The notes below the pieces were generated by a model. It had not been told where the DNA came from. It saw only the letters and a program-made list of their open reading frames with translations, and searched no databases. From Candidatus Obscuribacterales bacterium (GTDB taxonomy: Bacteria; Cyanobacteriota; Vampirovibrionia; Obscuribacterales; Obscuribacteraceae), in the NCBI GenBank assembly GCA_019748395.1, contig JAIEPM010000231.1, positions 1-52,216 of the forward strand: a stretch of 52,216 nt of DNA, written 5' to 3'. A program made the translations under genes and the position numbers. Shown here piece after piece: positions 3,736-45,316 of this stretch. Position 1 is the first letter of the stretch, and the number at the start of each line of letters is the position of its first letter.

Positions 3736-3785
3736 AGCTCTTTCGAAAACGCGATTTTCTAAAGGTTCGCAAGGTCTATTAAACC

Positions 3786-4184
3786 CTATTTCGCATCAAT
3801 AGTTTTGGAAGAAGAGAATCCTGTCTGGACTCCCACTGTGTGCCTGCCTGGATTTTCGGGAGCTTGTGGTCCGGCTTCGTGCTTGAGCGCGTTTTGACTA
3901 TCAAGAACCGGGCTGAGCATTTGACGTTGGATCGCGTCTCTCATGCCGGAAATTTTTAGCAGGTCGGCATTTTGCATCTCATTCAATTTGCCGATTGTTC
4001 TTGCTCTCAAAACCTGTACAAATGCTCCTTGAGTCAAGTTTTTCCTGCTTTTATAAGACTGGGAAATTCTTCCATGCAATGCTGCCGGAGCTCCGGCATT
4101 GACCTGAAGGTTCTGAGCCATCAGTGGAGCGCAACAGAAGAGACAAAGCAAAGGCAGTATCAATAATATTCTGAACACTTTCAT
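3786..4184 (-). CDS. Small secreted protein of unknown function
   Basis: 132 aa starting at an ATG preceded by a near-perfect AAGGAGGTGA ribosome binding site. Residues 1-23 form a clear signal peptide: Lys2, a hydrophobic core ILLILPLLCLFCC, and cleavage at LMA-QN. The mature part is about 109 aa, basic, with one amphipathic helical stretch around GKLNEMQNADLLKISGMRDA and a Gly/Pro/Ser-rich end. No cysteines are present in the mature chain. It converges on mutS2 with a 50-base gap that contains no obvious terminator. The family was not recognised. Confidence 0.8.
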   Translation of the reverse strand: MKVFRILLILPLLCLFCCAPLMAQNLQVNAGAPAALHGRISQSYKSRKNLTQGAFVQVLRARTIGKLNEMQNADLLKISGMRDAIQRQMLSPVLDSQNALKHEAGPQAPENPGRHTVGVQTGFSSSKTIDAK

Positions 4185-4396
4185 GACCGCTCACCTCCTT
4201 CTTATCTTGCTTTTCTTGATCTTATTCTTGCGCAAGCAGCAGCAGCAGGCGTCCTGATTTAGAGTTACTGCTTAGTTCATTTGAGATGGGTTCTTATAAG
4301 GCTTTAGCGTTAACCCGGAGAGCTGAGCGCCTGTGTTCCGGAGCCGCCCGCTTATTAGCAGCAGGAAGCTCCACGGGCTTTTAAATCGCCAGGCTG

Positions 4397-4448
4397 CGGT
4401 CAGCGCAGGCGTAGTGGTGACACATGGATTCGGTCAGCGTAGGCGTAG
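4397..4448. repeat. Pair of 18-bp direct repeats, period 34
   Basis: CGGTCAGCGCAGGCGTAG at 4397-4414 recurs as CGGTCAGCGTAGGCGTAG at 4431-4448, 17 of 18 bases identical. The second copy runs into GGGCCCCTACG, which can fold back on GTAGGG. This may be a remnant of a small dispersed repeat element or a tandem regulatory site. Confidence 0.55.
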
Positions 4449-4517
4449 GGCCCCTACGTATGTATAGTCGTTCAGGACTAGACTGAAAAGCAATATGCAG
4501 CGTCAGAGTTCGAGCCC

Positions 4518-4540
4518 AGGGCGACGCATGGCGTCGCCCT
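4518..4540. repeat. GC-rich 10-bp perfect inverted repeat, 3-base loop
   Basis: AGGGCGACGC, ATG, GCGTCGCCCT form a perfect 10-bp stem with a 3-base loop. There is no T-run on either side, so it is not a standard intrinsic terminator. REP-like elements in other bacteria look similar, but no second copy was noticed in this window. Confidence 0.6.
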
Positions 4541-4610
4541 TACCGATGGAGCTGCTGCTCATATCCGTGGGCATGGGCTGTATTGACTGAATGTTTAGCC
4601 TGAACTGTTG

Positions 4611-4638
4611 TGTCAGAAAAACAGCTGTTTTTCTGACA
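4611..4638. repeat. 28-bp perfect palindrome
   Basis: TGTCAGAAAAACAG is followed directly by its reverse complement CTGTTTTTCTGACA, with no loop. It can form a cruciform or bind a symmetric protein dimer; as RNA, the centre would need to open a few bases. It begins the TGTCAG word cluster that continues to 4743. Confidence 0.8.
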
Positions 4639-4743
4639 GCTGTCAGGAAAAGCCCAAAGCCTGTCAGGAAGATGGGAGGACAGACTTCCAGAAAATATTC
4701 GTATTGTTACGAAATGTAAAGAAGGGCTGTCAGGGCTGTCAGG
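4611..4743. repeat. Cluster of TGTCAG words upstream of the minor pilin operon
   Basis: TGTCAG occurs at 4611, 4641, 4662, 4728 and 4737, with one inverted copy (CTGACA) ending at 4638. The copies from 4641 on are extended as CTGTCAGG, and the two at 4640 and 4661 as CTGTCAGGAA. Spacing is irregular (30, 21, 66 and 9 bases). This fits a multi-site binding region about 120-250 bases before the pilin start codon better than a tandem repeat. The role is inferred. Confidence 0.5.
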
Positions 4744-4856
4744 ATTGGGATGAGATGGCGTTAAGGAAGGGTTGAATAGAAGTACGAGCCGCTTTTGAAA
4801 TCCACCGTTTTTAGTATTGCGGCACTAGAACTCAATATAAATGAATCGAGGAATTT

Positions 4857-5456
4857 ATGCTGAAGAATTCTTTGGCTTCGCGCCGTTTTGCTGCGCCCGC
4901 TCTGCTGTGCTTTCCCGATGAATCAGTGCAAACTCGCAGTTCAAGGGGCAGTTTTCTTGTGGAAGGAATGGTCGGAATTCTTGTATCGAGCATTATCGCC
5001 ACAGCGATGGTGCAGATTTATGCGCAGACCCGTCGAATGAGCAATGTCAGTCAGGGTCAGTTGCTTGCCACTGCGCTTGCTCAGGAGTGCATCGATCACC
5101 TGCGCGTTGTTCCTTATACTCTGGTTGCTGCCAACACCGGTGTTCACTATGCTCAGTTGTCCGGTGCTGCCACCCAGGATGCTTTATTCCCACGACCTTT
5201 ACTGGAAGATAATTCTCTGGATTACACCGCCGGTGGTGACTCAACAGTAGAGAATGCTTCCGCATCTGCTTTCCACAGTTTGAATGCCGATACAAATCAG
5301 GATGATGATACGGTCAAAGTTCAGATCGTTAATTCAAGCCTTGCCGGTATCACAGGTTTGCAGGTGACCGTAAGTCTGAAATGGCGTGACAGTTCCGGTT
5401 CCGTAAAGTCATATGACTCTTCTTCGTTTCTCACGCCGAATGGATTGGGTAGCTAG
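4857..5456 (+). CDS. PilV-like minor type IV prepilin
   Basis: 199 aa with a prepilin leader of about 30 residues ending SSRG, then SFLVEGMVGILVSSIIATAMVQ. Cleavage after Gly leaves Glu at mature position 5, the residue typical of pilins assembled by the type IV pilus or type II machinery. A hydrophobic N-terminal helix runs to about residue 57. It continues into a polar amphipathic helix containing ALAQECIDHLRVVPYT, as in PilV/GspI-like minor pilins. The globular domain is about 120 aa. The gene has a CGAGGAA ribosome binding site and is followed after two bases by the PilW-like gene, so the three pilin genes are one operon. Which filament it primes cannot be told from this window, as no PilB/PilC/PilD gene is present. 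Confidence 0.8.
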   Translation: MLKNSLASRRFAAPALLCFPDESVQTRSSRGSFLVEGMVGILVSSIIATAMVQIYAQTRRMSNVSQGQLLATALAQECIDHLRVVPYTLVAANTGVHYAQLSGAATQDALFPRPLLEDNSLDYTAGGDSTVENASASAFHSLNADTNQDDDTVKVQIVNSSLAGITGLQVTVSLKWRDSSGSVKSYDSSSFLTPNGLGS

Positions 5457-5458
5457 CT

Positions 5459-6445
5459 ATGAAGTCGAAGCATACAAATATCCGCTCCCGCAGTGGTGAT
5501 TCATTAATCGGGCTTCTGGTTGCGACTTTGATATTTTCATTCATCGGTGTTTCGATGATGGCACTTGTGTCTTTAAACACGATTGAGAGTTATAAAATCA
5601 ATGCTCGAACCGACAATATCAGCTCTGCAAAAGTAGCACTTGATAAAATCGGAAGACTGATTAGAATGGCTCGCAGTATAGGAGATGTGCAGGGTGCCAC
5701 GCGGCCCACGAGCAATCCCTTTTCCGATATTCCAAACGGACCGAGCACCGATACCTTCGCCGTGCACGGCAGCACAATCACGGTGAGCCAGGTCAGCTCC
5801 GGCACGGCATGTAATACTTCGGCTGCATTTCCATCCGTGGGTGATCCATATTATGGTCCCAACGGCACTTTGAACGGCACTATTGCCAGCTGGCCCTGGG
5901 GTGGCTCTCCCAACAATCCTTATCGCCTGAGCGGTGACACTTGTGTTTTGCAGGTTCCGACATTCGATGCTAACGGATTTCCAAATTGTGTTCAAAACGC
6001 TCAAACTCTGGCAGCTCTCGATACTTATGTATTTAAGGTGGTGCGTGATAATTCAAGACCGGGGCCGACTCGCTGGTTTCAATTACAAATGGCTGTATTC
6101 CCGGCTCCTAACGGATTGAGTAATAAACCCAGCACTCTTTCGCCCGGCTCTCCCGTAACAATCTTGAGTGGACTGGTCGGACCTCTTGATGGAAATCAGA
6201 ATCCGGCTGTTTTTCAGTACATAAACTCATCCACAAACACTGCCACCACTAACTTCGACCCTGCCACGCCGCAAGGTGCATTGAACGAGCAAGACCTGGT
6301 ACTTTTCAGCGGCGTTGTCGCCAATTTGCAAATTCTCAGCAATTCTCAAAGTGCAAGTCAAAAAGCCAGTCTTACCAGTTTGCGTTCTGAAATGTATCTG
6401 CGCAACAACGCTTCTGCTGCGATTATGGGTCCGTCTCCTAACTAA
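5459..6445 (+). CDS. PilW/GspJ-like minor prepilin lacking Glu5
   Basis: 328 aa. The leader RSRSG is followed by DSLIGLLVATLIFSFIGVSM, a class III prepilin cleavage site and N-terminal helix in which mature position 5 is Gly and not Glu. The following amphipathic helix ISSAKVALDKIGRLIRMARS resembles PilW/GspJ. The C-terminal domain is rich in Ser, Asn, Gly and Pro and has two cysteines near NTSAAF and one at GDTCVL, suggesting a disulfide. The start overlaps the tail of the previous gene to within two bases, so translation is probably coupled. The family call is by position and N-terminal pattern; the globular part was not recognised. Confidence 0.75.
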   Translation: MKSKHTNIRSRSGDSLIGLLVATLIFSFIGVSMMALVSLNTIESYKINARTDNISSAKVALDKIGRLIRMARSIGDVQGATRPTSNPFSDIPNGPSTDTFAVHGSTITVSQVSSGTACNTSAAFPSVGDPYYGPNGTLNGTIASWPWGGSPNNPYRLSGDTCVLQVPTFDANGFPNCVQNAQTLAALDTYVFKVVRDNSRPGPTRWFQLQMAVFPAPNGLSNKPSTLSPGSPVTILSGLVGPLDGNQNPAVFQYINSSTNTATTNFDPATPQGALNEQDLVLFSGVVANLQILSNSQSASQKASLTSLRSEMYLRNNASAAIMGPSPN

Positions 6446-24003: not shown

Positions 24004-25365
24004 TCAAAGAGATTGCAGAAATTCCAGAAGTTCATTCTTTTCAGTCTCGCATAGGGCGTTAAAACTGGCAGCTGCTTGCTCTGCCTGTCCGCCATGGAGC
24101 ATGATTGCTTCGCTCAGGGACTTTGCTCTGCCGTCATGTAAATATTGTTTCCTTTTTCGGATGCCCCAGAGTGGGGCTGTCCGCCATTCCGAGGCTGAAG
24201 CTCTGCCCTCCGGAATTCCGTCTGCCAGATCGTTTCCCATATGATGAACCAGAAAATCTGAGTAAGCTGCTACCGGCTTGTTTTCCAAAGCTTCAATTTC
24301 AATGAAATCCAGGTCTGGAAATTTGCTGTCGGGGTCCACCACCGTAACTTTTTCGGCACTGCGTAATTCCGGTACATGACAGAATGCACAACCGAGCTTT
24401 TCAAATGTTTGCTCACCACGTTTTACCGCTGGTGTAATTTTGCCTCTTTCCGGGGCTGCAAGCAGTGACATGTAATAGGTTAACTCAGCCTGAATTTTTC
24501 CATTGTCGTTCGGTTCGGAAGCTACGAATGAGCTTAAGCAAGTCGGTAGTTTAGATTCGCCGCCAGGAGCTCGGACTTTTGGGTTGCTGGGGCTGCTTAT
24601 TCCGATAGCATCGTTCATCATGTCTGCTGCTACCATCAGCAAGTTAGATTCAATGCACTTCTGTCCAAAACGATTTATGCGAGATTCGAAAGTAAGTCTG
24701 TCTTTGCGGTCCAGAACACGGCCGACTGCGTCGACGTCCAGCTCTAGCTGCTGTTCTTCCAGCTTATCGATTTGATTGTCGGGAATGGCGTTAATCAGCC
24801 CTACTCCGTCTAGACTGCGAGCTATTCTTGTAGAGACAAAATCGCAATCTTTCGGAATTCCAATAGTTTCGACTTTGCAATCCTTTAGTGCCGCAATAGA
24901 CTCGCTAAGTGAATGTTTCTCGACCAGACCCATTCCTTGATTCTCGTAAAAATGAACGTCCCTCAGCGTGGCGCTGCTCTTAAGCAGGCTTTTTGAAGCC
25001 TTCGGATCTTTTCTACTTGCAAATAAAATCAGAGAACGCGATGCAAGTGAGTTCTTGTTTTCAATTGCGGCAAGATCATTTGAATTGGATTGCTCTGAGT
25101 CATGGCAGCTTGCGCAACTTTTAGCGTTGTAAACCGGACCCAGACCTTCTTGAGCGGTAAATTCATGTTGGAAGGTTTTAGCGCAGCGTTCAAACTTGGA
25201 CTTTTGTTGAGCCGTAAGACCGGCAACAGGCGTTGCGATTTGTTTTTTTGGGGAAGCAGTTTGCAGGGGTGAGCAACTTACCAGCATTGTCAGAGAAAGC
25301 AAAATTGCAGATTGTTTGAATAAATGAGCTCGGTTGTTTGGGGCAAGAAGTCTTATTTTTGTCAT
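24004..25365 (-). CDS. Diheme c-type lipoprotein, DUF1111/thiol oxidoreductase-like family
   Basis: About 453 aa from the ATG at 25365 (a TTG 15 bases earlier is in frame). A lipoprotein signal ends in LVSC near residue 31. The mature protein has two c-heme sites: CASCHDS near residue 84, inside FTAQEGLGPVYNAKSCASCH, and CAFCHVPEL near 330. The C-terminal RTAPLWGIRKRKQYLHDG is the conserved end of the DUF1111 diheme family, distantly related to MauG and cytochrome c peroxidases. These proteins are periplasmic or outer-membrane redox proteins of uncertain substrate. It is the last gene of a seven-gene co-directional run, 56 bases after the HMA-TPR gene, suggesting a shared envelope redox or metal function. 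Confidence 0.88.
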   Translation of the reverse strand: MTKIRLLAPNNRAHLFKQSAILLSLTMLVSCSPLQTASPKKQIATPVAGLTAQQKSKFERCAKTFQHEFTAQEGLGPVYNAKSCASCHDSEQSNSNDLAAIENKNSLASRSLILFASRKDPKASKSLLKSSATLRDVHFYENQGMGLVEKHSLSESIAALKDCKVETIGIPKDCDFVSTRIARSLDGVGLINAIPDNQIDKLEEQQLELDVDAVGRVLDRKDRLTFESRINRFGQKCIESNLLMVAADMMNDAIGISSPSNPKVRAPGGESKLPTCLSSFVASEPNDNGKIQAELTYYMSLLAAPERGKITPAVKRGEQTFEKLGCAFCHVPELRSAEKVTVVDPDSKFPDLDFIEIEALENKPVAAYSDFLVHHMGNDLADGIPEGRASASEWRTAPLWGIRKRKQYLHDGRAKSLSEAIMLHGGQAEQAAASFNALCETEKNELLEFLQSL

Positions 25366-25421
25366 GAAATTTGGTCTCAAATGTTAAAGCTTTAGCTATG
25401 CCATGAAAATGAACCGACTCT

Positions 25422-26732
25422 CTAAACGGGGCGGAAGACGGAGGCTATACTGCTAAATGCTTTTCTAAGCTGCTCTCTCAAAATGGCGGCGTAGTTATGT
25501 TTCCAGTTCCAAATTTTGAGCATGCGAGATTCCAGTACTTTGCTCTTTTGTGGATCCTTTTTGCTGGCAATTTGCCACTGAACTAATGCTTCGTGATTCT
25601 TCCGTTCCTTCAATAAAACGCGAACCAGTTGCAGGCGCCATTCAAGATTTTCCGGACAAGACAATAGAGCGTTTTTATACGCCGTTTCTGCAACCAGGTA
25701 CCAGTTTTCCCTCGTTTGTTTTTGTGCAGGATGATTTGTGGTCAGGACACTGGCTCTTTTCAGGCATTGTTCTGCCAGAAAAGATTGGAATTCGGGACTT
25801 TTTAAGTGCTTCTTGCTCTGTCTTACAAGAACCTGGTAATCTGCAGCAGGAGCATTTAGTTTGTCGAAACATTGCTCAAGGATTTCATAACTGCCTTCTT
25901 TTTGCGGATAGTTCTTGACCAGTTCGGAAGCCTGTAGCAAAGCTTCAGGGTAATTTGTTGATTCGTAGGCGATCTGGGATAAAAGCCTCAGTGCGGCGTA
26001 AGAATTTGTCTTTTCTGAAAGTACCGTTCTGCATAGCTCTTGCACTTGATCATAGCGACCTGTGAACATGAGTGCGCAAGCAAGAGTTAGCCGAATCCTC
26101 CTTCTCTGGGCAGCTTCGTTAGCGGGTAGCGGCATAGAGTTTAGTTTCATAAGTAACGAGATTGATTCTTCGACTTTTCCGCTTTGAATCAGATTACGGG
26201 CAAAACGAAGCTGCGCCTCCAGTTTTCTTGATAATTCGAGTTCTTTGCTCGATTTCGTTTCTGCAGGCATAAGTAGCAGAGAGTCGCTGTTGAGCTCTGT
26301 GCACCAGAAGAGGTCTTTTGGCCAACCTTTCAAAAGCAAAGGGCTGCAGTTTTGATTTTGCTCACTAAGAGCAATCACCTCAAAGTTAAGTTGCCCTACT
26401 TGAGCAGCGACTTGCTCCTTGGAGATCTTGCTTTTGTCTATTGTAACTGTGGCGCTTGGTCTGAACTCACCCAGTTTTTTTTCAACGCTTAGCATCAAAA
26501 CCCCCGGATTTCGATGGAGCGTTGTTTCAACTGCTTTCCTGCAAGATAAGCAGCCAGCGCCTCCAATCTGGAACTTGATAATGCTCAAATTTGAAGTCCG
26601 AGAATCAGCCGGAGTGGCGGTCGTGTTAACTTGAACGGTCAGTTGTCGGGTCTGTACTGAGCTTGCAAGCGTCGGCGATACCACAGCAATAGCGCAGAGC
26701 ATCGCAATTCCCATTTTTGTGTTCTGTTTCAT
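25422..26732 (-). CDS. Exported HMA (CxxC) domain fused to TPR region
   Basis: 436 aa. A signal peptide covers residues 1-24 (core MGIAMLCAIAVVSPTLAS). Residues 50-118 form a heavy-metal-associated domain: SIIKFQIGGAGCLSCRKAVE with Cys61 and Cys64, then PSATVTIDKSKISKEQVAAQVGQLNFEV. This is the MerP/CopZ fold that binds Cu(I), Zn or Hg with the CxxC pair. From about residue 170 to the end there are five or more TPR-like helix pairs (for example YDQVQELCRTVLSEKTNSYAALRLLSQIAY). Fusion of an exported HMA domain to TPRs is unusual. The gene starts 13 bases after the TadG-like stop and is followed by the diheme lipoprotein gene. It could deliver metal to the cytochrome or to the assembled Tad-like structure; this is a guess from context. 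Confidence 0.85.
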   Translation of the reverse strand: MKQNTKMGIAMLCAIAVVSPTLASSVQTRQLTVQVNTTATPADSRTSNLSIIKFQIGGAGCLSCRKAVETTLHRNPGVLMLSVEKKLGEFRPSATVTIDKSKISKEQVAAQVGQLNFEVIALSEQNQNCSPLLLKGWPKDLFWCTELNSDSLLLMPAETKSSKELELSRKLEAQLRFARNLIQSGKVEESISLLMKLNSMPLPANEAAQRRRIRLTLACALMFTGRYDQVQELCRTVLSEKTNSYAALRLLSQIAYESTNYPEALLQASELVKNYPQKEGSYEILEQCFDKLNAPAADYQVLVRQSKKHLKSPEFQSFLAEQCLKRASVLTTNHPAQKQTRENWYLVAETAYKNALLSCPENLEWRLQLVRVLLKERKNHEALVQWQIASKKDPQKSKVLESRMLKIWNWKHNYAAILREQLRKAFSSIASVFRPV

Positions 26733-26745
26733 GTCGTTAACTCAT

Positions 26746-29700
26746 TTAAGGCGTGTAAGGTGCTGCTATGTCCACAGGTCCATTCATGTAGTTAAGATCT
26801 GAAGGCGTCCTGTAAACGGGCGGGCAGGTGTCATATGTTTCTTTTTCCTCTGCATTTAGCTCGGCTTGCTCTCGTGAGGCGTCATCACCCGGGAGGGCTG
26901 AGAATTGAAATGGCAGCAAATCACTTGCCTTGTGTGCTTTAAGTAGCATATGGTCTAGGTCGAGCTTGCAACAGGCTACGCCAAATGGGTTACCGATGCG
27001 AAATTCGCCGGCTGGATAGGGTGGATCTTTCTTTTGGTCTCCTATTTTGATGTCGAAGTTGCTTGTCCATTTACGAGGATCTTGCAGTGAGTAGCTCTTA
27101 CCGTTTTCCAGATCTGCGAACTGGTCTCGAGCAATGACTGAACGAATAACGTAGGCGGGGTGATTCGGATCTAGACCCGCTTGTCCTTCTTGGAAAATGT
27201 CTCCTGCGAAATAGAGAAACTGAGATGGCAGTAAATTGTAGTGACCAAACGGATAGCGCGGTGTTTTGTCAAGGTGTGGGTGCCTGATATGTGTTATCCC
27301 TATGGTTCCGCTTCCGCCATTTGGCTTTGAAACATCGCCATCGCAGCTAAGAACAAAAACCATTTCAAGTGTTGGCGATGCGCTCGTTGCATTCTTAGTG
27401 CCGCCACCAGAAGCAGAGCTTGTGTTACGTGTTTCAAGATTACTCTTGGCTCTATAGTCTATGATTTCTTGCTTTAACTCACCCAGCTTTGGAAAAGAAT
27501 ATGAGTTTGGGTCTTTAGATACTCTGTCAATGTGGTTGATATCTCCTTTGAGTTTATAGATTCCGCCGTCATTTGTTCCCGAGACAAGCCGAGACGAGTA
27601 CGGTCTTAACGGATAAAATCTTGCTGAGTATTTGACACCATAAGGTAAACCTCTTTGCGGATCTCGGGAGCACCATTCATATCGGTACAAGCGAGCCTTA
27701 TCTACGTCGCTTATAGGGTTGCCGATCGTGGATTCAAATAGTCCCTGGCGAAACTTGGAATTTGCGTGAAGACTTGAGTAATCACTGAATTTGGCTCCAT
27801 TTAGTGTACCGTTGTAATTACTCTTTATCAGTTCGGCTGGCATCACAGAACATTGCAGCGGTAGATGCTCGCTTCCGTAGAGCAGCCTGTCGGTTTCTTT
27901 TACGAAATATCCAAATTTCCCTAATGCAGGATCTTCAGCGTTTGCAAAACCGGCTGACTGTACCTGCTCAACCAAAAAGGCAAAGTCATTTACGTCGGAT
28001 TCAGTTACAGGATCAAGGTCGTAAAAATTCGAACCGCTATAGCGCTGATGCGTTCTGATTTTTGCTCTTTTATTCTTAGGATGCCCGCAGTTAGGCATAA
28101 CAAAGGCTATTCTGGCGTAGCTAGTCAAAAATTCATCGAACTTCCCTTTTTTCCAGTAAGGAGTTGGGTCATGAACAGTATCTCCATTCCAGCCTTCAAC
28201 GTTTAAGGCGAAAACCGGTGCGTTTGGATACTTTTCAGGATCGGGACTTTTCTCATAATCTCGAGATGCCGGAGGCGCTTCAGTGTTCAGTTTCTTTACG
28301 CTGCTTGTTAGCTGTCTGCAAAGTCTGAAGAATCGTCGAGACTTTACCATGGCGATCTTTCCAGCTCTCATGCAATTTAGTGCTCTAGAGCTTATATGTT
28401 CGACTCGTCCGATCTCCTCATTCATCAGAAGTCTGTGCATTGGTAACTTTGACGCTTCCGAGGCGGCATTGCCGGCCGTTATGGAGATGTTCTTGAATTT
28501 TTCAAGAAAACTTGCGGGTGTCTCCCCTGCGTGGATGCCGTATTTTGAGTCAGACTGAAGTGGTGAGTGCTCTAATAATTTCTGTCCTTTATATTTGAGC
28601 CAAACTTCTTTGAGCTTATTGAGTTCAGTTGCCAGAGCTTGGAGATCGCCTGGTATGGCTGGAGGGTTAGGTGCGGCTTCGTCTGCTAGAAGCTGATTAT
28701 ATGCAGCTTCAGCCCTGCTAATTCCTTGCTGAACTGTATCGGTTAGGTGAGCCTTTAGTATTGTATCTCGACCTCGATGTGTGTAAAGTTCATTCTCGAG
28801 GAAATTACTTACTTTAGCTTTTCCCTCCAGAATTAGAAGCGGCTGGAGTGATTCGAAAAATGCCATTCTTCCCCCCAACCTTGCTTCCATCGCAGCCTGA
28901 TTGGTCGCAATCATGCCTTCTATTAGTTGGCACAGTTCAACAATGCTTGCGCCCGAAGTGGTTCTGGCCTCGCCTGTAATTGGATCTTCAAGTATGCTTC
29001 CGACAGACTGGCTGCATTGCACACCGGAGGGATCATCCAATCCCAGATAATCGAACGCTTGTTTATATATTCTTTTCCCTTCTTCAGAGCTGGGGTCAGT
29101 GAGATATAAAAATCTGGGATCGACTTTACCTGGTTCAAGAGCTCGTCTCATGCAGCCCACTAGAGGACCAGGTGCAGGAACGAAATCGGCTTCCTCCACG
29201 TCGCCGGCTGATTCCTGGCTTTCTGTTTTGTCTTCTGGATTAGGCTGATTGCTATCATCACTGCCGCTTTCATCAGAGACTGCTTCATCTTTAAATTCTC
29301 GGGCTTTCACAATTGTGCGGAAGTCACCTGTTTTTATGGCTGCAACTACCGACTGTCGATTAGGGCGAAGTCTGAGGCTTCTGAGCCAATCGTAAAGTCC
29401 GGATGCCAGTGCCGTACTTGGGTTGTCTCGTGCTGTTTGTGCCGAGGACAATGTATAAAAATCAGCCGGTACAAGTGTGCCGCCGTTGTCCGGATAATTT
29501 GCAGGGCCCTTGTTTTGAAGCCAGGTGCTGCTCTGGTGTGCCGGATCCATGTTTTGCCAGCCATTGAAATTCAGCAATTTTTCTGTGGTCAAAACTTTGC
29601 CCATTGAGTTTTCACTGGGAAATGCTCCTGCAAATCCAATCGTATAAACCGTGGACCTCGCATTCAGAATCGCCCCACCGGTCTGTGCTGCCGCTTCATG

Positions 29701-30588
29701 ATGAACGGAACCCAGTGCTTTCGCGTCTTTAGCATTGGGCGCCAGACTTTTAATTGTGTTATCGGCTTTTACTCTTACAACTGTTGTCGGCAGCCACTCT
29801 TTTTCATCTGACTCGACAAAACGTTCATTGCTGACTAAGCGAGCTTCACTGGCGATTGCAGCAAAGCGAAAATTTTCTTTTTCACCTTCGACCGGAACGT
29901 CGGCATAAGGCAGATAAAGTCCGGAGCTCGATACTTTCTCCGATTCTTTGTCCGGAGGGGTCGGTATGCTGACATTAGTTGAGCCGGTGCGTGCCTTTAA
30001 ATGTCCAATCTCAATCTTGAAAGTATTCGGATCAAGCTCGCCAGGTCCGCCCATGCGTCGATTATTTTGTTCATATACAGCCATGGTCTGCTCTCTGAGG
30101 GTGGATTTAGAGCCCTTAGAAACGAGCGAATTCATCTTCTCTTTCATTTCTTTTGCGACTCGGCGCAACTCCGTCATGTCTCTTTCGACAAGCCTTTTCA
30201 TATCCTTATTATTCAAATCGTGCGCAATTTGATAATCCAGCCTGGCTGTAGCTATGGCCGTATTGATACCGATCACGGGAGCTTCGTTGCTCGGATTGAT
30301 GACAGTGCCGTTTTTCATGAAATACGGATTGCGTTTGTCCTTTGGGCTCATATCCACAAGTCCGATATAGCCGAGTTTTGATTTGATGATCAGGCTTTGA
30401 TCATTTGCGATTTCTCTGGCTGCATACAAGGCGGCTGCGTCTATCGCAGTTTGAGCTTCTTTATTTGTGCCGAAAATTCCTGCGACGTTAAGACTGAAAA
30501 AGACGATCGCCAGCAATATGACTCCTATACACGCAAGCACAAGAACAATGTTGCCATTTTTACTTGCGCGCTTTTGCTTTGCTCTCAT
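26746..30588 (-). CDS. Very large TadG-like pilus-assembly protein
   Basis: 1280 aa with GGAGG nine bases before the ATG. The N-terminus is basic, then NGNIVLVLACIGVILLAIVFFSLNVAG and EAQTAIDAAALYAAREIAND. That is the Tad/TadG-like N-terminal pattern: a single transmembrane helix followed by a helix with Ala-Asp repeats. The remaining 1200 residues are predicted extracytoplasmic: helical coiled regions, an acidic Ser/Glu segment near 430-455, and several beta-rich parts. Ordinary TadG proteins are about 400-600 aa. A von Willebrand A domain was not recognised. Two TadE-like genes precede it in the same direction, at 42 and 53 bases spacing, so the three are likely one assembly unit. No TadA ATPase, TadB/C or Flp pilin is in the window. 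Confidence 0.8.
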   Translation of the reverse strand: MRAKQKRASKNGNIVLVLACIGVILLAIVFFSLNVAGIFGTNKEAQTAIDAAALYAAREIANDQSLIIKSKLGYIGLVDMSPKDKRNPYFMKNGTVINPSNEAPVIGINTAIATARLDYQIAHDLNNKDMKRLVERDMTELRRVAKEMKEKMNSLVSKGSKSTLREQTMAVYEQNNRRMGGPGELDPNTFKIEIGHLKARTGSTNVSIPTPPDKESEKVSSSGLYLPYADVPVEGEKENFRFAAIASEARLVSNERFVESDEKEWLPTTVVRVKADNTIKSLAPNAKDAKALGSVHHEAAAQTGGAILNARSTVYTIGFAGAFPSENSMGKVLTTEKLLNFNGWQNMDPAHQSSTWLQNKGPANYPDNGGTLVPADFYTLSSAQTARDNPSTALASGLYDWLRSLRLRPNRQSVVAAIKTGDFRTIVKAREFKDEAVSDESGSDDSNQPNPEDKTESQESAGDVEEADFVPAPGPLVGCMRRALEPGKVDPRFLYLTDPSSEEGKRIYKQAFDYLGLDDPSGVQCSQSVGSILEDPITGEARTTSGASIVELCQLIEGMIATNQAAMEARLGGRMAFFESLQPLLILEGKAKVSNFLENELYTHRGRDTILKAHLTDTVQQGISRAEAAYNQLLADEAAPNPPAIPGDLQALATELNKLKEVWLKYKGQKLLEHSPLQSDSKYGIHAGETPASFLEKFKNISITAGNAASEASKLPMHRLLMNEEIGRVEHISSRALNCMRAGKIAMVKSRRFFRLCRQLTSSVKKLNTEAPPASRDYEKSPDPEKYPNAPVFALNVEGWNGDTVHDPTPYWKKGKFDEFLTSYARIAFVMPNCGHPKNKRAKIRTHQRYSGSNFYDLDPVTESDVNDFAFLVEQVQSAGFANAEDPALGKFGYFVKETDRLLYGSEHLPLQCSVMPAELIKSNYNGTLNGAKFSDYSSLHANSKFRQGLFESTIGNPISDVDKARLYRYEWCSRDPQRGLPYGVKYSARFYPLRPYSSRLVSGTNDGGIYKLKGDINHIDRVSKDPNSYSFPKLGELKQEIIDYRAKSNLETRNTSSASGGGTKNATSASPTLEMVFVLSCDGDVSKPNGGSGTIGITHIRHPHLDKTPRYPFGHYNLLPSQFLYFAGDIFQEGQAGLDPNHPAYVIRSVIARDQFADLENGKSYSLQDPRKWTSNFDIKIGDQKKDPPYPAGEFRIGNPFGVACCKLDLDHMLLKAHKASDLLPFQFSALPGDDASREQAELNAEEKETYDTCPPVYRTPSDLNYMNGPVDIAAPYTP

Positions 30589-30630
30589 TTCGACGCCTCC
30601 ACGGGATTAATTGGAATCTTTTATTGCTGC

Positions 30631-31320
30631 TTAATTGCACAGACCTTCAGGGTGCTCAACATTGGATATTGCGCAGTGTTCAATGATGGCGGCTTTGCCG
30701 AGCATGGGTACCTGACTTAAGCCGAAAGGCATAGAGCTGAAATTGAAGAGTGGCATGACCTCATATTTCGCCATGACTTTGAATGCGTAAGCATATTTTT
30801 TGCGGTCGATGCCTTCGCTTTTGGGATAGGATTTGTTAGGACCATAGTGCGACTCGGAAAATGTGCTGTTTTTCTCTTCTTGGCTAACAGCAAATTTGAA
30901 GCTGCCTTCATCCGGGTTTGACTGGCTATCGTTAACTGTGTTTGATGTATTGTTTTTGCTGCTATCTGTTACTTTGTCGACTTCAGCACGGTCGATATAA
31001 AGATCGACACCCAAATTCCGGTAGCCGCCAACTGGTTTGATATTGGCAAATTGACCGATACCGGAAAAAACAATCGACTTTGCTTGATTTGACATTTGAT
31101 TCATTGCTTCAGTATTTGATGAAGCAGAACCTGCTTGGCGAGCTGCGTTGTTTGCAATGAGATGAACTGTCGCTACACCCCAGCTGAAACTAAGAAGATT
31201 GATCAGTGGAAAGAAGAGCAGGAAGAACAATACATAAAGCATCGGTCCTGTTTCAGCTATGGCGTTTCCATGGTTGTTGCGCGAGTTCTTGAAAACTCTC
31301 TTTGCATCTTGGCTTGTCAT
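30631..31320 (-). CDS. TadE-like pseudopilin
   Basis: 229 aa. After a short basic leader the sequence NHGNAIAETGPMLYVLFFLL matches the TadE N-terminus, with a conserved Glu just before the hydrophobic helix (residues 27-50). The next helix, ATVHLIANNAARQAGSASSN, is TadE-like. The rest (about 150 aa) is exposed, polar and without cysteines except two at the extreme end (HCAISN, EGLCN) that may pair. It lies between a second TadE-like gene and the giant TadG-like gene. TadE/TadF pseudopilins are processed by TadV and help Flp pilus assembly; whether a processing enzyme exists elsewhere cannot be seen here. Confidence 0.8.
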   Translation of the reverse strand: MTSQDAKRVFKNSRNNHGNAIAETGPMLYVLFFLLFFPLINLLSFSWGVATVHLIANNAARQAGSASSNTEAMNQMSNQAKSIVFSGIGQFANIKPVGGYRNLGVDLYIDRAEVDKVTDSSKNNTSNTVNDSQSNPDEGSFKFAVSQEEKNSTFSESHYGPNKSYPKSEGIDRKKYAYAFKVMAKYEVMPLFNFSSMPFGLSQVPMLGKAAIIEHCAISNVEHPEGLCN

Positions 31321-31373
31321 GTCCTGTTCCCATCCCTTCTAGCTCGATCTACCCGTAAATCAGACATCGTTCC

Positions 31374-31856
31374 TTAATTTTCGCTTTCATTGGCTACAGC
31401 AAAGGAGTAAGGCATTGTTTGTTGGGCGTAGAAAACAAGCTTTTCAGTGCCGCTTGCTTGTTTGTGAATGGCGCCGATCAGAAAGGGCGGATAAACTTCG
31501 AGGCTGGTTTTAACTGTGACTGTGCCTGATACATTGCCGCCGACCGTATCATCGATTTTCTCGTCGGCTTCCTGGCTGTTATGCGAATCCTTTTCAACGA
31601 GGCGTAAATTTCCGATTGCGCCACGGAGATTGTAAAGAACGCTTTTAGCTATTACGGCGTTTGCTCGGGAGAGATACATAGTCGGAGAGCCTGTTGATGC
31701 GACGCGGCAGGCTTCGCGGCAGGCAGCATCGTTAACGCTTACACCGACGACAATGACGATCAGGTCAAAGAGGCAGAGAATCACAGGCAGAAGAGCAATC
31801 AGACCTGCGCTGCACTCGATCATCAACTGAGCTTTGGAATTGCGATTTCTTGCCAT
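31374..31856 (-). CDS. TadE-like pseudopilin
   Basis: 160 aa with GGAG nine bases before the ATG. N-terminus MARNRNSKAQLMIECSAGLIALLPVILCLFDLIV has the Glu-before-helix TadE signature, followed by VNDAACREACRVAS, the position where TadE proteins often carry an Ala/Arg-rich helix. The exposed domain is about 110 aa with a beta-rich part (GTVTVKTSLEVYPPFLIG). It is the first Tad-like gene after the two histidine kinases, 95 bases downstream of them, and precedes the other TadE-like gene by 53 bases. Confidence 0.8.
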   Translation of the reverse strand: MARNRNSKAQLMIECSAGLIALLPVILCLFDLIVIVVGVSVNDAACREACRVASTGSPTMYLSRANAVIAKSVLYNLRGAIGNLRLVEKDSHNSQEADEKIDDTVGGNVSGTVTVKTSLEVYPPFLIGAIHKQASGTEKLVFYAQQTMPYSFAVANESEN

Positions 31857-31951: not shown

Positions 31952-33469
31952 TTATTCGATTTTCTCCAGATCACTGCTCGGTGCGGCTTTAAGTTCAAAC
32001 CAGAAGCAGCTTCCGCCGTTTTCGCGGCGTTTATAGCCGATGCTGCCACCCTGGGCTTCAATGAGCATTTTACAGATGTATAAACCGAGTCCTGAGCCCT
32101 GTTTGCGGACATCTTCCGCTTGCTCGAGCTGGCTGAATTTAGCAAAAAGCCGACTCTGCTTATCTTCCGGTACACCCGGACCTTCATCCAGTACTTCCAG
32201 GCGCAGGCGCTCAGTCTCAGCTACGCTGTTTACGACTATGTCGATTCTGGAATTTTTCGGAGCGAACTTAACAGCGTTTGAGAGTAGGTTTACCAGTACC
32301 TGAATACAGCGATCTTTATCGCAATAGAAGCTTGCGCCTTCCTGAAGTTCTTGAAGGATACTTATGTTTTTGCGTTTGGACTGAGAAATAATTGCTTCCT
32401 CAGATATCTTAATCAGCTCCAGGCAAGATAAAGAACGAAGCTGCACCTCCACACTGCCGTCTTCGATTTTTTCTATATCCAGAAGTGTGTTCGCCAGGCG
32501 GGTCAAGCGTCCTGTTTCCGAATGCAATAACTTCAAATCACGCAGGTAGGACCTTGCGATTTCAATCTTTTCCTCTCCGGCCTGCTTAACTTGCTCCTCT
32601 GCGGAGTTGAGCATTACTTCAAGTTTAAGCGCCATCGAGGTTAAAGGCGAGCGCAAGTCGTGACTTACCATGGCTCTCATGGAGTCTTTTAATTCTTCCA
32701 GTTTTGCTCGTTCTTCAGCCATTTCACGAAAAGCCCGATCGATAGTGGCAAGTTCATCCTCTCCCGATAGGCTCTTGGTCGGCACTTTCCCCCTGGAAAA
32801 CTCATTCATATTGAGGCGCAAAAGCTCCAGTCGGGAAAGCGTTTTTTTTCCTAATATATGTGCAAAGGCGAGCACAAGCATGATGTTGATTGCAACTGCG
32901 GCAATTATTGCCATGTTCAAAAATGATCTGGCCTCGATTGATTCTGGATTGAGTTCCTGGGCATCCCGGCTGTATCTGGCCAGAAGCGCGTCGGCGTCTT
33001 CGTGTACGCTGTTCAGGGCGTAGAGCATTGATTCGTTCAGGTCGCCCCGGCAGAGAAACTGTGAAAAATATTGAGTCCTGCCATGACCGCTGCTGTAAGC
33101 ATGAACATATTCTTCCCAGAGATCCAGGAAACGGAAAGCATTTTCTTTCCAGCGGGATAGAATTTCCTGAGTTTTTGTATCTGCTTTGGCAAACTCTTGG
33201 ATCTCATTGAAGTACTTGTTTATGCGCTGTCTTTGTTTATCAATGCCGCTTGTGCTTTTACCAAGCAGGCTATCCTTTGCAGTCAGGAGTACGGTTTGTT
33301 CCATACTCATGCTCAATTGAAGCCCCAAGGCCGTCGCTTTTTTTGCATTTAGTTCTCTCAAAGCGAGTTCATCGACGCGTTGATAGCTGCTGATCAAAAC
33401 TGCCGCTGTTACAAGCTCGCAGGCAATCGGCAATCCTAGAATCAATGCTAACTGCTGTCTTATTTGCAT
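31952..33469 (-). CDS. Membrane sensor histidine kinase
   Basis: 505 aa from the ATG at 33469, whose first bases overlap the previous stop by 10 bases, with AGGA nine bases upstream; an in-frame ATG at 33502 is an alternative. Topology: TM1 at about 7-27, a helical periplasmic sensor to about 180, TM2 at about 183-203, a HAMP-like linker, HisKA with MVSHDLRSPLTSM (phospho-acceptor His near 270), and HATPase_c. The ATPase part has NAVKFAP (N box), DEGPGVPED (G1) and GSGLGLYICKMLIEAQGG (G2). It is a close tandem duplicate of the kinase half of the upstream gene. No response regulator gene is nearby, so its partner is elsewhere. Confidence 0.93.
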   Translation of the reverse strand: MQIRQQLALILGLPIACELVTAAVLISSYQRVDELALRELNAKKATALGLQLSMSMEQTVLLTAKDSLLGKSTSGIDKQRQRINKYFNEIQEFAKADTKTQEILSRWKENAFRFLDLWEEYVHAYSSGHGRTQYFSQFLCRGDLNESMLYALNSVHEDADALLARYSRDAQELNPESIEARSFLNMAIIAAVAINIMLVLAFAHILGKKTLSRLELLRLNMNEFSRGKVPTKSLSGEDELATIDRAFREMAEERAKLEELKDSMRAMVSHDLRSPLTSMALKLEVMLNSAEEQVKQAGEEKIEIARSYLRDLKLLHSETGRLTRLANTLLDIEKIEDGSVEVQLRSLSCLELIKISEEAIISQSKRKNISILQELQEGASFYCDKDRCIQVLVNLLSNAVKFAPKNSRIDIVVNSVAETERLRLEVLDEGPGVPEDKQSRLFAKFSQLEQAEDVRKQGSGLGLYICKMLIEAQGGSIGYKRRENGGSCFWFELKAAPSSDLEKIE

Positions 33470-36354
33470 ATTGCCGGGTCCTGCTTTGAGCTTCCCCTGC
33501 ATTCGAGCCGGGCTTTATGCAAAACATTTGAAAGGCTGCTAAATAACTCCTTTTCCACTTCTAATGCGGCTTTATGGGAGAGCAGCTCTTCAGCTCTGCT
33601 TTCTAAGACCGGAAAGTCTTTCTGAACCGGCGCTGCTTTCTTGCTTCTTTGACAGGCTCTCAGTATTTCCAATTCGGTGATCAGGAGGCGATAATTGTAA
33701 AAAGGCAGGTCTTTTATGCAGTTTTTAGAAATCGATAAAATTTGTTCCTGCGCAGCTTCTATTTTATTTAAGCGTGCATAAGCCAGAGCTAGCATCAAGC
33801 GCTTTCGCGCATGAATCTTGTTAAAAAATGCCGGGTTAAGACTCGCCCAGGGCGGCATTTTGTTCGAACTGCTCATCTGAACTTCTTTTTCAAGCAAGCT
33901 AATATCTAAATTCTCATTCCTGATATCGTCTATGAGAAACTTTCGGAAGCGTTCAAGTATTTCCATGGACAGAGCTTTGTTTCTTGTGGCTAAAGAATAG
34001 TCCAGTGCTTTTTGAAATGAATTCAAAGCTTTCAGCTTTTCGGCATTTCGCTCAAAAAGCTCTGCTCTAAGCATTTCTATCTGGGCTGCATCGCTTGCTG
34101 TCTTAGTGCTGATCGCACTCAGATACTCTTCAAGGCAGCTTGCAGCTTTCGTGCTTACTGTATTTGACGAGTAAAGATGCTCAGTCCATGCATCCAGCAC
34201 AGACTTTCTGTTTTCTAGAGGAAGCTTGTTCAGTCCTGCGAGTAAGTTCTCCGCCTCTTCGTCATTTCCCTGGCTGAGTAGTAAATGAACCTGGGCGCAA
34301 ATACTATTACTTAGCTCTTCAAGTCCTTTATCGATTATCGAGAGATCATGTTGACCAAGAGCGTTTTTTTTGATTCCAGCCGCTACAGTCAATGCCGCTT
34401 GAAGTTTTCCTCTATTGAGGTATCCTTGGGCTAAGAGCAGCAAGTCTCTGGCATTTGATTTGAAAGGAAGATATTTCTCGAGCGTTTCAATTGCTCTAGA
34501 ATATGCATTTAGAGATTTATCTATTTTATCTTCTTCCAGGTAAACCCCCGCCCAACGGCGCCAGTAGCGAGCTTCCATTATTCGGTCTTTTAATTTGCCG
34601 CTTTCTATAAAAGGTCTGACTTTTTCGAGTGTCTCTTCGGCTTTCCGGAAATTTTTCAAGCGTCTGTATACCTCTGCTATGTTGAGGTAAATGTCATACT
34701 TCGCTTCGCAATCAGGATCATCTTGCTCAATCATGATCAGAGCCTTGCTATAAACAGAAAGAGCGCGAGTGAGGTCTGTGCTCTTGTCAATGTCGAGTCT
34801 GGCGGACCTGACATAAGTGCGCCAGCTGCTTCTGCCGCTTGAATCGGCTGCTTCAACGCTTTGAGAGAGAAGGACTGTGAATAGCAAGAGTGCTTTTAGT
34901 GCTGCTTTAGGTAGTTCAAACCAGAAACAGCTGCCGCCCTCGGCTCGTTTTTTGTATCCGACTCTGCCGTTCTGCGCTTCGATCAACATTTTGCAAATGT
35001 ACAGCCCGAGTCCGCTGCCTTGTTTCTTAAGATCGGCGGACTGTTCAAGCTGAACAAACTTTGCAAACAGTTTATTTTGAGCGTCTTCCGCGACGCCTGG
35101 TCCTTGATCAAGTATTTCAATCGACCAGCTATCTTCATTGTTTTCGCAAACCTTGATTTCAATTTCAGACTTCCTTGGAGCAAACTTGACTGCATTCGAG
35201 AGAAAATTGACCAGCACCTGTATACTGCGATCTCTGTCGCAATACATGCTGGCGCATTGAACTAATGACTGCTTGATAGTTATCTCTTTTCGTTTGCTCT
35301 GGGCCAGGACAGCCTCAATTGACACTGTAATTAAGTCTGCACAGCTATTCTCCTTGGCTTGAACTTCGATACTGCCGTCTTCCATTTTCTCGATATCGAG
35401 AAGTGTGTTTGCCAGTCGACGCAGTCTTTGAATCTCTGAGTTGAGTGTTTTGAGATTGCCCGTGAGCTGCGGATAGACGTCTTCGATATCCTCAAGAATT
35501 AGTTCTACTCTAAGACCCATGGATGTTAATGGCGAACGGAGGTCATGACTGACCATTGCCCTCATTGATTGTTTGAAAGATTCGAGTTTTTCCAGTTCAT
35601 TCGACATTTCTTGAAAGACCTGGTCTATTTCTGCAAGTTCATCGTTTCCATTCAAGCGGGATATTTTTTGACCAGGCACTGAAAAGGCTTTTATATTATT
35701 GAGAAGCAGGAGCAAGCGAAGCATGATGTTTCTGTTCAATAAAACAGCAAAGCATGCCACCAGAATTACATTTGCCGCTACTCCTAGAATCACTGCTCCA
35801 CGCAAATTTGCTCTGGCTTTCATCGCTTTCGGATGGAACTCGGCTGCTATTGGTGTGTAAATAGCAAGCATTTTGTTTGTATCGTTATTGACTCTTTTGA
35901 AATCGTTGAGCATTTGATCTTGGGCTGCCTTTGTTTGCAAAGCCACAAGTGGTGCATCGCCTTCTTTATCAGACTCGTTGATTTGTGCAAGGAGTTTGTC
36001 GAAACTATCCAGAAAAATCTCGACGTCCTTTTGCCATAGATCAAGTCGCTTCGCTGCTTCAGCTTCAGAGCTGCTCAGTTTTCGTATCAATGCAAAATCA
36101 TTCTGGATGCTCTGCCTTGGAACTTCGCTTTGAATGTCGGCAATCCCGGCGATACCTTTGTTAGACATGACACAAATTGATTTTTGCAAAAGTGCCCTTA
36201 TATGAATGCCTGCTGAGATTACTCTTTTAGCTTTGAGTTCTTTATTTACGAGTTCATCTACTTTGCTGTAGGAATAAATCAACATGCCGACTGAAAGCAT
36301 TTGGCAGCCTATCGGCAGTCCAAGAAGCAAAATGAGCTGTTTGCTGATTTTCAT
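33460..36354 (-). CDS. Histidine kinase fused to a TPR region behind a third membrane segment
   Basis: 964 aa. Residues 1-480 are a complete sensor kinase like the downstream paralog: TM1 about 7-30, periplasmic sensor, TM2 about 185-207, HAMP-like linker, HisKA with His270 in MVSHDLRSPLTSMG, and HATPase with NAVKFAP, DQGPGVAED and GSGLGLYICKMLIEAQ. Directly after FWFEL, where the paralog ends, comes KAALKALLLFTVLLSQSVEAADSS (residues 481-505, quoted in part: KALLLFTVLLSQSVEA). This looks exactly like a signal peptide with an AxA-type end. It is followed by about 460 residues of TPR-like helices (RALSVYSKALIMI, NAYSRAIETLEKYL). If the segment spans the membrane the TPR part is periplasmic. 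The gene opens the seven-gene run and overlaps the second kinase. A fusion of two ancestral genes is the simplest reading. Confidence 0.9.
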   Translation of the reverse strand: MKISKQLILLLGLPIGCQMLSVGMLIYSYSKVDELVNKELKAKRVISAGIHIRALLQKSICVMSNKGIAGIADIQSEVPRQSIQNDFALIRKLSSSEAEAAKRLDLWQKDVEIFLDSFDKLLAQINESDKEGDAPLVALQTKAAQDQMLNDFKRVNNDTNKMLAIYTPIAAEFHPKAMKARANLRGAVILGVAANVILVACFAVLLNRNIMLRLLLLLNNIKAFSVPGQKISRLNGNDELAEIDQVFQEMSNELEKLESFKQSMRAMVSHDLRSPLTSMGLRVELILEDIEDVYPQLTGNLKTLNSEIQRLRRLANTLLDIEKMEDGSIEVQAKENSCADLITVSIEAVLAQSKRKEITIKQSLVQCASMYCDRDRSIQVLVNFLSNAVKFAPRKSEIEIKVCENNEDSWSIEILDQGPGVAEDAQNKLFAKFVQLEQSADLKKQGSGLGLYICKMLIEAQNGRVGYKKRAEGGSCFWFELPKAALKALLLFTVLLSQSVEAADSSGRSSWRTYVRSARLDIDKSTDLTRALSVYSKALIMIEQDDPDCEAKYDIYLNIAEVYRRLKNFRKAEETLEKVRPFIESGKLKDRIMEARYWRRWAGVYLEEDKIDKSLNAYSRAIETLEKYLPFKSNARDLLLLAQGYLNRGKLQAALTVAAGIKKNALGQHDLSIIDKGLEELSNSICAQVHLLLSQGNDEEAENLLAGLNKLPLENRKSVLDAWTEHLYSSNTVSTKAASCLEEYLSAISTKTASDAAQIEMLRAELFERNAEKLKALNSFQKALDYSLATRNKALSMEILERFRKFLIDDIRNENLDISLLEKEVQMSSSNKMPPWASLNPAFFNKIHARKRLMLALAYARLNKIEAAQEQILSISKNCIKDLPFYNYRLLITELEILRACQRSKKAAPVQKDFPVLESRAEELLSHKAALEVEKELFSSLSNVLHKARLECRGSSKQDPAICK

Positions 36355-43582: not shown

Positions 43583-45316
43583 CTAGGCTTCGGAAGCTAC
43601 TTTCCATCTGTTTTCGGCAGCAGCCAGAAGACCTTGCATCTCTTTCATGGGCGTGATGTCGCCGCGTTTAGCTGCGATGTCTATTCCGGCAAGATAAACG
43701 CGTCTGGCATCGTCTTTTCGATCTAGATGCTCAAAGGCTTTGCCCAGGGCTAGATAGGCGACTGTGTGCGTGGGTTTTACTTCAATGGCTTTCAGCAGGT
43801 AAGGAAGTGCTTCTTCGTATCTTTCAAGCTCGACATAAACACTGCCTACGCCATTGTTAGCAAGAAAATCGGAAGGGTCGATTTCCAGGACTTGCCGAAA
43901 CATCTGCAGTCTTTGTTCGGACTCTTCTTTCAGCCTGGCTTTGTTTTCATCCTGCTTTTTCTTTTCTGCATGCTCTTTTGCCAGTTGGGACATACGCAGC
44001 CCCATGGAAATCGCCTTTTCTTCCTCTGCTTTTTCTTTATCGCCTAAATGCATGTAATAAATAGACAGATTTGTGTGAGCCATAATTGAGTTTGGATCAA
44101 GTGCTTGCAATCGATGCATCAGAGCTATGGCTTCATCATATTGCTCCTGCCTTGAAAGAATGACTCCAAGCGATTCGTAGGCATCCGTATGTAATGGATC
44201 AAGTTCGATTACTTCTCTGAGAATCTTGATTGCTTTTGTTTCGGAAGCATGAGCAAATTCTTTGAGCGCTTCTTCGTATAGCTTTGCGGCTTTTGCTTTG
44301 CTGGAATCTGCTGTATAGAAAGGCAAGAATTTTACTGTGGCGGTGAGCTTAGAGCCATTTTCAAGTTCCAGAAGAACTCGTTTTTCCGGAACCCGATAAT
44401 CGCGTGCTATGTAGGCAAGCGCAATATTCTGTCCAAGACCCGGCGAAAAACAATTGCTTTTGATCACACCGCAGTCCTCGTTGCTTATGGAGAATTTGCT
44501 GTTCAGAGCTAGTGGCTCCGGAAGCTTTTCTTCAAAAGCAAGACCGACGAGTGCTCGACGAGGTGCTCCATAGGTTTTGATGCGAGCAAGTACTTCTTGC
44601 CCCTGAAAGCAGCCTTTGTTGTAGCTTGCAGATTGCTGTTCCAGACCCGTTTCTGGTAATAGATGTTCCTGGTCTATGTCTATTCCAAATACTGTTATGC
44701 CGGCCTCAATTCTCAAAATATCAAGCGCTTCTGCGGAAATCTCAATTGCCTTGATAGTTTTTCCGGCTGCTTCTAATGCTGTCTTGAAAGCAGATCCTTT
44801 TTCTTTGCGCACGAAGAAAAGATATCCTGCATCACCGCATAAAGATCGTTTTACGGCAATTGCTTCGATTCCGAAAATAGAGCTGCGATTTATCGAATAT
44901 TCTTCTTCGCCGGGGGGCTGCGTCGAGTTGCTTGCAATGAAACTTGAAGCAAGAACGCCTTGAACAATGAAGCAGGAAAAATCCCGGCCGATTTCCTCAT
45001 ATTTTATTTGTTCGCGAAAATGATAGGTGCTCAGCTCTTTCAAAATGCTATCAGTCTGTTTATTGAAGCTTATGATCCAGTATGAGTCTTCAAGTCGATG
45101 AACTGTGAAAAAAGCAATGAGATAGCCTTTGCGATCAAGCAAGCTATTCAGTTGACCCTGCCCTGTTTTGAGAGCTTTCAGATCATTGCTGCAGCGACCC
45201 TGCAGATAAGATTCTGCATCCTTGCCGCTTACTTCGATGATTGAAAAGTCTTCTGCTTGTTTATATCCGGCAGCCTGTCTTACTGCTTGAAGTTCCGCAT
45301 TTATTTGCTCGTTCAT
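43583..45316 (-). CDS. YgfZ/GcvT-like folate-binding protein fused to TPR repeats
   Basis: 577 aa. Residues 1-340 are a YgfZ (IbaA57-like) protein: AESYLQGRCSNDLKAL near the start, GQLNSLLDRKGYLIAFF, and the signature NKGCFQGQEVLARIKTYGAP with Cys near residue 233. Family knowledge: YgfZ supports maturation and repair of certain Fe-S enzymes with tetrahydrofolate. Residues 345-570 are at least four TPRs (AIKILREVIELDPLHTDAYE, FRQVLEIDPSDFLANNG, LPYLLKAIEVKPTHTVAYLA), interrupted by a Lys/Glu-rich coiled helix. Standard YgfZ lacks TPRs. The A-type carrier gene lies just upstream, and the hemerythrin and ScdA_N genes just downstream. Only a GCGAG-like ribosome binding site precedes the ATG. Confidence 0.9.
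   Translation of the reverse strand: MNEQINAELQAVRQAAGYKQAEDFSIIEVSGKDAESYLQGRCSNDLKALKTGQGQLNSLLDRKGYLIAFFTVHRLEDSYWIISFNKQTDSILKELSTYHFREQIKYEEIGRDFSCFIVQGVLASSFIASNSTQPPGEEEYSINRSSIFGIEAIAVKRSLCGDAGYLFFVRKEKGSAFKTALEAAGKTIKAIEISAEALDILRIEAGITVFGIDIDQEHLLPETGLEQQSASYNKGCFQGQEVLARIKTYGAPRRALVGLAFEEKLPEPLALNSKFSISNEDCGVIKSNCFSPGLGQNIALAYIARDYRVPEKRVLLELENGSKLTATVKFLPFYTADSSKAKAAKLYEEALKEFAHASETKAIKILREVIELDPLHTDAYESLGVILSRQEQYDEAIALMHRLQALDPNSIMAHTNLSIYYMHLGDKEKAEEEKAISMGLRMSQLAKEHAEKKKQDENKARLKEESEQRLQMFRQVLEIDPSDFLANNGVGSVYVELERYEEALPYLLKAIEVKPTHTVAYLALGKAFEHLDRKDDARRVYLAGIDIAAKRGDITPMKEMQGLLAAAENRWKVASEA

Follow-up and report, generated by a model that had tools for sequence, protein, structure and literature searches.

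A membrane histidine kinase fused in frame, through a signal-peptide-like segment, to a homolog of separate exported TPR proteins in Candidatus Obscuribacterales

In a 52,216-nucleotide stretch of Candidatus Obscuribacterales DNA (assembly GCA_019748395.1, contig JAIEPM010000231.1, positions 1 to 52,216; hereafter “the window”), the open reading frame at 33460–36354 on the minus strand starts with ATG, runs for 964 codons with no internal stop, and holds three parts: a complete histidine kinase (residues 1–486), a signal-peptide core (residues 485–502) and a TPR protein (residues 503–964). The fused kinase–TPR frame described by the first-pass annotation is real. We consider that it is probably a natural in-frame fusion within a cassette of response regulator, TPR protein and kinase, that the segment between the two proteins is, by a weak leaning, more likely cut than kept, and that the TPR part may act as a co-sensor. 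The fused gene is assigned to this cassette because the separate TPR genes of relatives adjoin kinases of the same family and response regulators. The features of the locus are as follows.

34897–36354, minus strand: kin1, the membrane histidine kinase part, residues 1–486 (Pfam, hydropathy and motifs)
34849–34902, minus strand: h- and c-region of a putative signal peptide, in frame, residues 485–502, without a usable start codon of its own (hydropathy, profiles and homologs)
33463–34848, minus strand: TPR protein part, residues 503–964, homologous to the separate exported TPR proteins of relatives (Pfam, profiles and structure model)
33460–33469, minus strand: 10-nt overlap of the fusion stop with the kin2 start (atgcaaataa), the same layout as in C173 of the source genome
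31952–33469, minus strand: kin2, a paralogous histidine kinase with a gene of its own, occupying the position of the TPR gene's usual downstream partner
26746–31856, minus strand: three TadE/TadG-like genes downstream of kin2, belonging to the neighbourhood and lying outside the fusion

Matches to Pfam HisKA (residues 264–327, 6.8e-11) and HATPase_c (residues 373–484, 4.8e-24) both exceed the Pfam cut-offs, and kin1 retains the phospho-acceptor histidine (His270) together with the N, G1 and G2 motifs. Two spans precede the kinase core, with hydropathy peaks at residues 8–26 (TM1) and 188–206 (TM2). Spans and signal segment were scored by Kyte-Doolittle hydropathy in 19-residue windows. The motif FWFEL occupies residues 477–481; the tandem paralog kin2 also carries it and has only 12 residues beyond its L, in keeping with the earlier statement that a complete kinase ends at FWFEL as its paralog does. 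All 27 other kinases of the group compared have tails of at most 20 residues past the kinase end. The 11-residue hydropathy reaches at most 1.55 in those of their tails that can be scored, many being too short, versus 2.45 here. Profiles built with the window sequence excluded (26 sequences for the kinase, 14 for the TPR protein) match adjoining parts of the frame, the kinase at 1–484 (4.7e-169) and the TPR protein at 489–929 (5.5e-58). With window rows included, the border between the two matches falls between residues 486 (last of the kinase) and 487 (first of the TPR protein).

The hydrophobic stretch and TPR-like region that the first-pass annotation placed behind the kinase were recovered as well, the former at residues 485–503 and the latter by the TPR profile and by Pfam TPR_19 at 527–580 (28.9 bits, cut-off 25). 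The other TPR models listed score below their own cut-offs, and few repeats of the TPR part are detectable by Pfam. A single-sequence structure model has a mean pLDDT of 53.5 and is confident only over about the first 90 residues (508–597), so the predicted TPR fold is firm over that stretch, and farther on it rests on homology and predicted helices. Matches to solved structures are to generic repeat proteins only (best 2.9e-05), and no NCBIfam equivalog scores above its cut-off among the matches listed. A W-containing motif behind the segment of the window also follows the signal segments of the 12 relatives first aligned, with the W unchanged in all 13 rows of that alignment. Two other frames of the window also hold TPR regions: 43583–45316 is a single 577-residue frame in which a GCV_T (aminomethyltransferase folate-binding) domain precedes a C-terminal TPR region, and 24004–26732 combines a weak heavy-metal-associated domain match with TPR repeats beside a di-haem oxidoreductase-like gene.

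To describe the TPR part in relatives, 50 genomes of the same family were searched with the TPR profile at a threshold of 55 bits. Eight genomes hold 30 copies, the window copy among them, and one further, weaker copy in the source genome (C564) brings the total to 31; L038, a weak TPR match beside a kinase (39 bits), lies below the threshold and is excluded. The other 30 copies are encoded in frames of 291–548 amino acids, none of which is shared with a kinase, and each has a hydrophobic segment within its first 90 residues (11-residue means of 2.07–3.19; 2.45 in the window). Homologs with the two parts as separate genes, proposed earlier as a check on the fusion, are therefore the rule, and none of these 30 is devoid of the hydrophobic segment, the absence of which, together with a clearly cytoplasmic TPR part, was named earlier as counter-evidence.

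A family kinase lies within 300 nt of 24 of the 30 copies, in the order TPR–kinase in 14, kinase–TPR in six (all with genes that touch or overlap) and divergently in four. Two more are divergent at greater distance with a response regulator in or near the gap, two have a kinase farther downstream, and two have no kinase in view, one of these being at a contig end. Because the first 12 copies were found via their kinases, a less biased count is the 13 of 18 among copies recovered with the TPR profile. Response regulators are present within 2 kb of 24 of the 30; the one at C173 has receiver and OmpR-type DNA-binding domains. The cassette of response regulator, exported TPR protein and kinase is thus found in 8 of 50 family genomes; in this family search, the three remaining genomes of the genus gave no match. 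In a shallow survey of 244 genomes of the phylum, in which at most six candidates per genome were scored among the matches listed, the TPR protein was seen in one, the source genome. Among the open-licence papers listed, none was recognised as dealing with the cassette or with a kinase carrying an exported TPR protein at its C-terminus.

At the junction, a hydrophobic core (ALKALLLFTVLL) followed by SQSVEA occupies residues 485–502, directly behind FWFELPKA, with positive charges ahead of it at the kinase end (KKR, then K and K). Signal peptidase generally requires small residues at positions −3 and −1, and the segment end, V500-E501-A502, is compatible with such cutting. The best 19-residue window (485–503; mean 1.47) ranks third in the protein behind TM2 (2.83) and TM1 (2.09), and falls at the low end of the signal segments of the 12 relatives first compared (1.46–2.41). 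Its position is that of the signal segments in the separate TPR proteins; by hydropathy it is a candidate for an in-frame internal signal peptide, with a core and a V-E-A end at the homologous place. Both remaining frames at the junction contain stops and no hydrophobic segment; hence no separate signal peptide is hidden there, and a hidden frameshift was rejected on the same grounds.

It is very improbable that the TPR protein is made separately, with or without the fused product, from an internal start at ATG 34989 (M456) in the kinase gene. This codon is in frame, but no Shine-Dalgarno-like sequence was seen by eye just upstream of it, it lies within the conserved kinase stretch GLGLYICKMLIEAQ, and the leader would be about 30 residues long. 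An alternative start, TTG at 34887, falls inside the hydrophobic core.

An accident of assembly, of sequencing or of a single strain, in which the genes are separate in the species or the fusion is recent and non-functional, is quite unlikely. The fusion is known from a single assembly, fragmented into 678 contigs (90.06% complete, 4.17% contaminated), and no second fused copy exists among the 31, both of which speak for such an accident; yet both the missing stop and the missing start would then have to be errors, a signal-peptide start is available in none of the other frames, and the junction is free of repeats liable to mislead an assembler. None of the 15-mers in the 300-nt junction region recurs in the window, and GC content is even on the two sides (0.433 and 0.438), which favours a true junction. 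A mix-up of the tandem paralogs by the assembler is thought unlikely, since the longest exact match between kin1 and kin2 is 14 nt and no junction 15-mer is repeated. Note that codon use in 30-codon windows from codons 490 and 500 gives the fused frame no clear advantage (scores of 1.7 and 2.4 for frame 0; 3.3 and 2.7 for frame +1).

The preferred reading, a natural fusion with a cut segment, would have come about as follows. The stop codon of kin1, a kinase gene just upstream of a cassette TPR gene, would have disappeared, along with the start of that TPR gene and the beginning of the encoded signal peptide, whose n-region would now be replaced by the positively charged C-terminal end of the kinase. 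TM1 and TM2 would insert the kinase with its catalytic part inside, and the signal core would send the TPR part outward. Export of the TPR part is likely, given the cytoplasmic kinase end with its K and R residues, the hydrophobic core and the homology to proteins with N-terminal signal segments. Signal peptidase would then most likely cleave after V500-E501-A502, so that equal amounts of free kinase and periplasmic TPR protein result; with lower probability, the segment would be kept as a third span (TM3) with the TPR part tethered. Either way, kin1 and the separately coded kin2, both family kinases, may have the periplasmic TPR part as co-sensor, a role suggested by gene neighbourhood and by analogy with kinases that have periplasmic partners or TPR-like sensors.

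The first-pass annotation had proposed that a kinase gene merged with an exported TPR gene, giving a lasting third span and a tethered C-terminal sensor. The merger stands, the parts being separate in relatives and the TPR protein having its own N-terminal signal segment there. The uncut three-span kinase, with a tethered periplasmic sensor at its C-terminus, is possible though doubtful: it draws on the same evidence for fusion, the charged kinase end favours N-in/C-out insertion, and double kinases of the family have a membrane segment behind the first catalytic part, so such a segment is tolerated there, a point that also speaks for the preferred reading. For a span, however, the segment lacks length and is only weakly hydrophobic, and the polar residues after it resemble a signal-peptidase site. 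Because the core is weaker than both kinase spans and ends in V-E-A, cutting into two proteins is weakly favoured ahead of a third span. We regard as rather unlikely a further reading, a “tail-sensing” kinase in which the exported TPR protein, as general periplasmic co-receptor of the family, is covalently tied here to the C-terminal end of one kinase; this kinase would have extracytoplasmic parts before and behind its catalytic domain, and the TPR part may also serve kin2.

The gene order at the locus is kin1::TPR, kin2 and the Tad-like genes. The kin2 frame spans 31952–33502, with its start probably the ATG at 33469. As in the cassettes of the family (C173 in the source genome; L029–L040 and L065–L080), homologous TPR and kinase parts occur together, homology extends over most of the cassette TPR protein and its signal segment, this segment is in the same place, and the TPR gene touches a downstream family kinase. 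Unlike there, the TPR part shares one frame with kin1 instead of being a separate gene, and a response regulator, usually near in the cassettes, is absent from the window. The kept downstream kinase and the missing response regulator did not figure in the first-pass annotation. Since the TPR/kinase junction of C173 is also a 10-nt overlap (atgcaattaa), the TPR gene keeps a kinase at its usual position downstream, and it is the upstream kinase that the fusion joined to it; as it is not the usual partner that is fused, the fusion by itself is no proof of contact with kin2.

In the kinase tree, kin1, kin2 and the C173 and L029 kinases form one clade (100/99), within which kin1 pairs weakly with the C173 kinase (90/74). 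The TPR tree groups the window TPR with those of L029 and L028, the locus on C173, at 97/96; its pairing with L029 is weak (91/71), with long branches and unsettled bootstrap. L028 (C173:1-4360) is a paralogous cassette of divergent response regulator, exported TPR protein and kinase, and also holds the start of a further kinase, truncated at the contig end. A tandem TPR–kinase duplication minus the first TPR gene would explain the order kin1-TPR-kin2, although this is a guess; no TPR remnant was recognised by eye in the 83 nt before kin1. Beyond kin1 lie genes for a sulfatase-modifying-factor-like protein and a sulfatase. Among the three Tad-like genes, only 26746–30588 scores above the cut-off of a Pfam Tad model; the longest of the proteins, at 1280 residues, is large for a TadG-like protein. 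At L029, short genes with hydrophobic starts also lie behind the kinase, but a blastp comparison of the three Tad-like proteins with those of L029 and L037 found nothing at E 0.1, and synteny of Tad genes with L029 is therefore a weak hint at most.

The source genome has a very large set of sensor kinases: the kinase/TPR query matches it 121 times, predominantly through the kinase part and with some proteins matched twice. Fusions of two kinases are recurrent, 16 of 17 loci examined being one frame with two kinase parts. In alignment, the first part is without the phospho-acceptor histidine in 13 of the 16 and the second part has it in all; three (L081, L085 and L086) keep both. The profile match of the second part ends before the G2 motif in eight of 16, and at L082 (positions 3109–6105 of this locus, on C462 of the source genome) its N and G2 motifs are degenerate, so that ATP-binding motifs are not intact in the second half of nine of 16. 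First halves without the histidine do carry ATP-binding motifs. Such complementary losses occur in L082, L087, L088, L090–L094 and L096, and in part in L095 and L097–L099; because 14 of the loci were chosen among the better matches to L082, their share is not a survey. Pfam finds one HATPase_c (first half) and one HisKA (second half) in L082 and in five of six further proteins, and two HATPase_c stretches in L087. This pattern suggests kinases whose one half would have to be phosphorylated by the other, be it in one chain or in a dimer. Split kinases are known as a kind (PMC3591291).

Like the fused frame described here, the fbcH cytochrome b/c1 precursor of Bradyrhizobium links a membrane protein with an exported one by way of an internal signal peptide, which is cut; its products are electron transport proteins and their cutting is known, whereas here the protein is a signalling protein and cutting is only proposed. 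LuxP and HptA are not known to be TPR proteins. In LuxP-LuxQ and HptA-HptS, as outlined in PMC8534201, a periplasmic protein is the co-sensor of a kinase, an exported partner of the kind proposed for the cassette; the proteins are separate there and fused here. According to the same paper, VbrK and VxrA have a periplasmic TPR-like domain, and are by description like the present protein in using such a domain as the extracytoplasmic part of a histidine kinase; theirs lies ahead of the kinase core, whereas here the TPR part follows HATPase_c.

The fusion naturally links genes that adjoin in relatives, and for this reason it points to a partnership of the exported TPR protein with this kinase family. 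Left uncut, the product would depart from the usual kinase layout in having an extracytoplasmic domain behind the catalytic one; with cutting, the gene would encode a bacterial signalling polyprotein.
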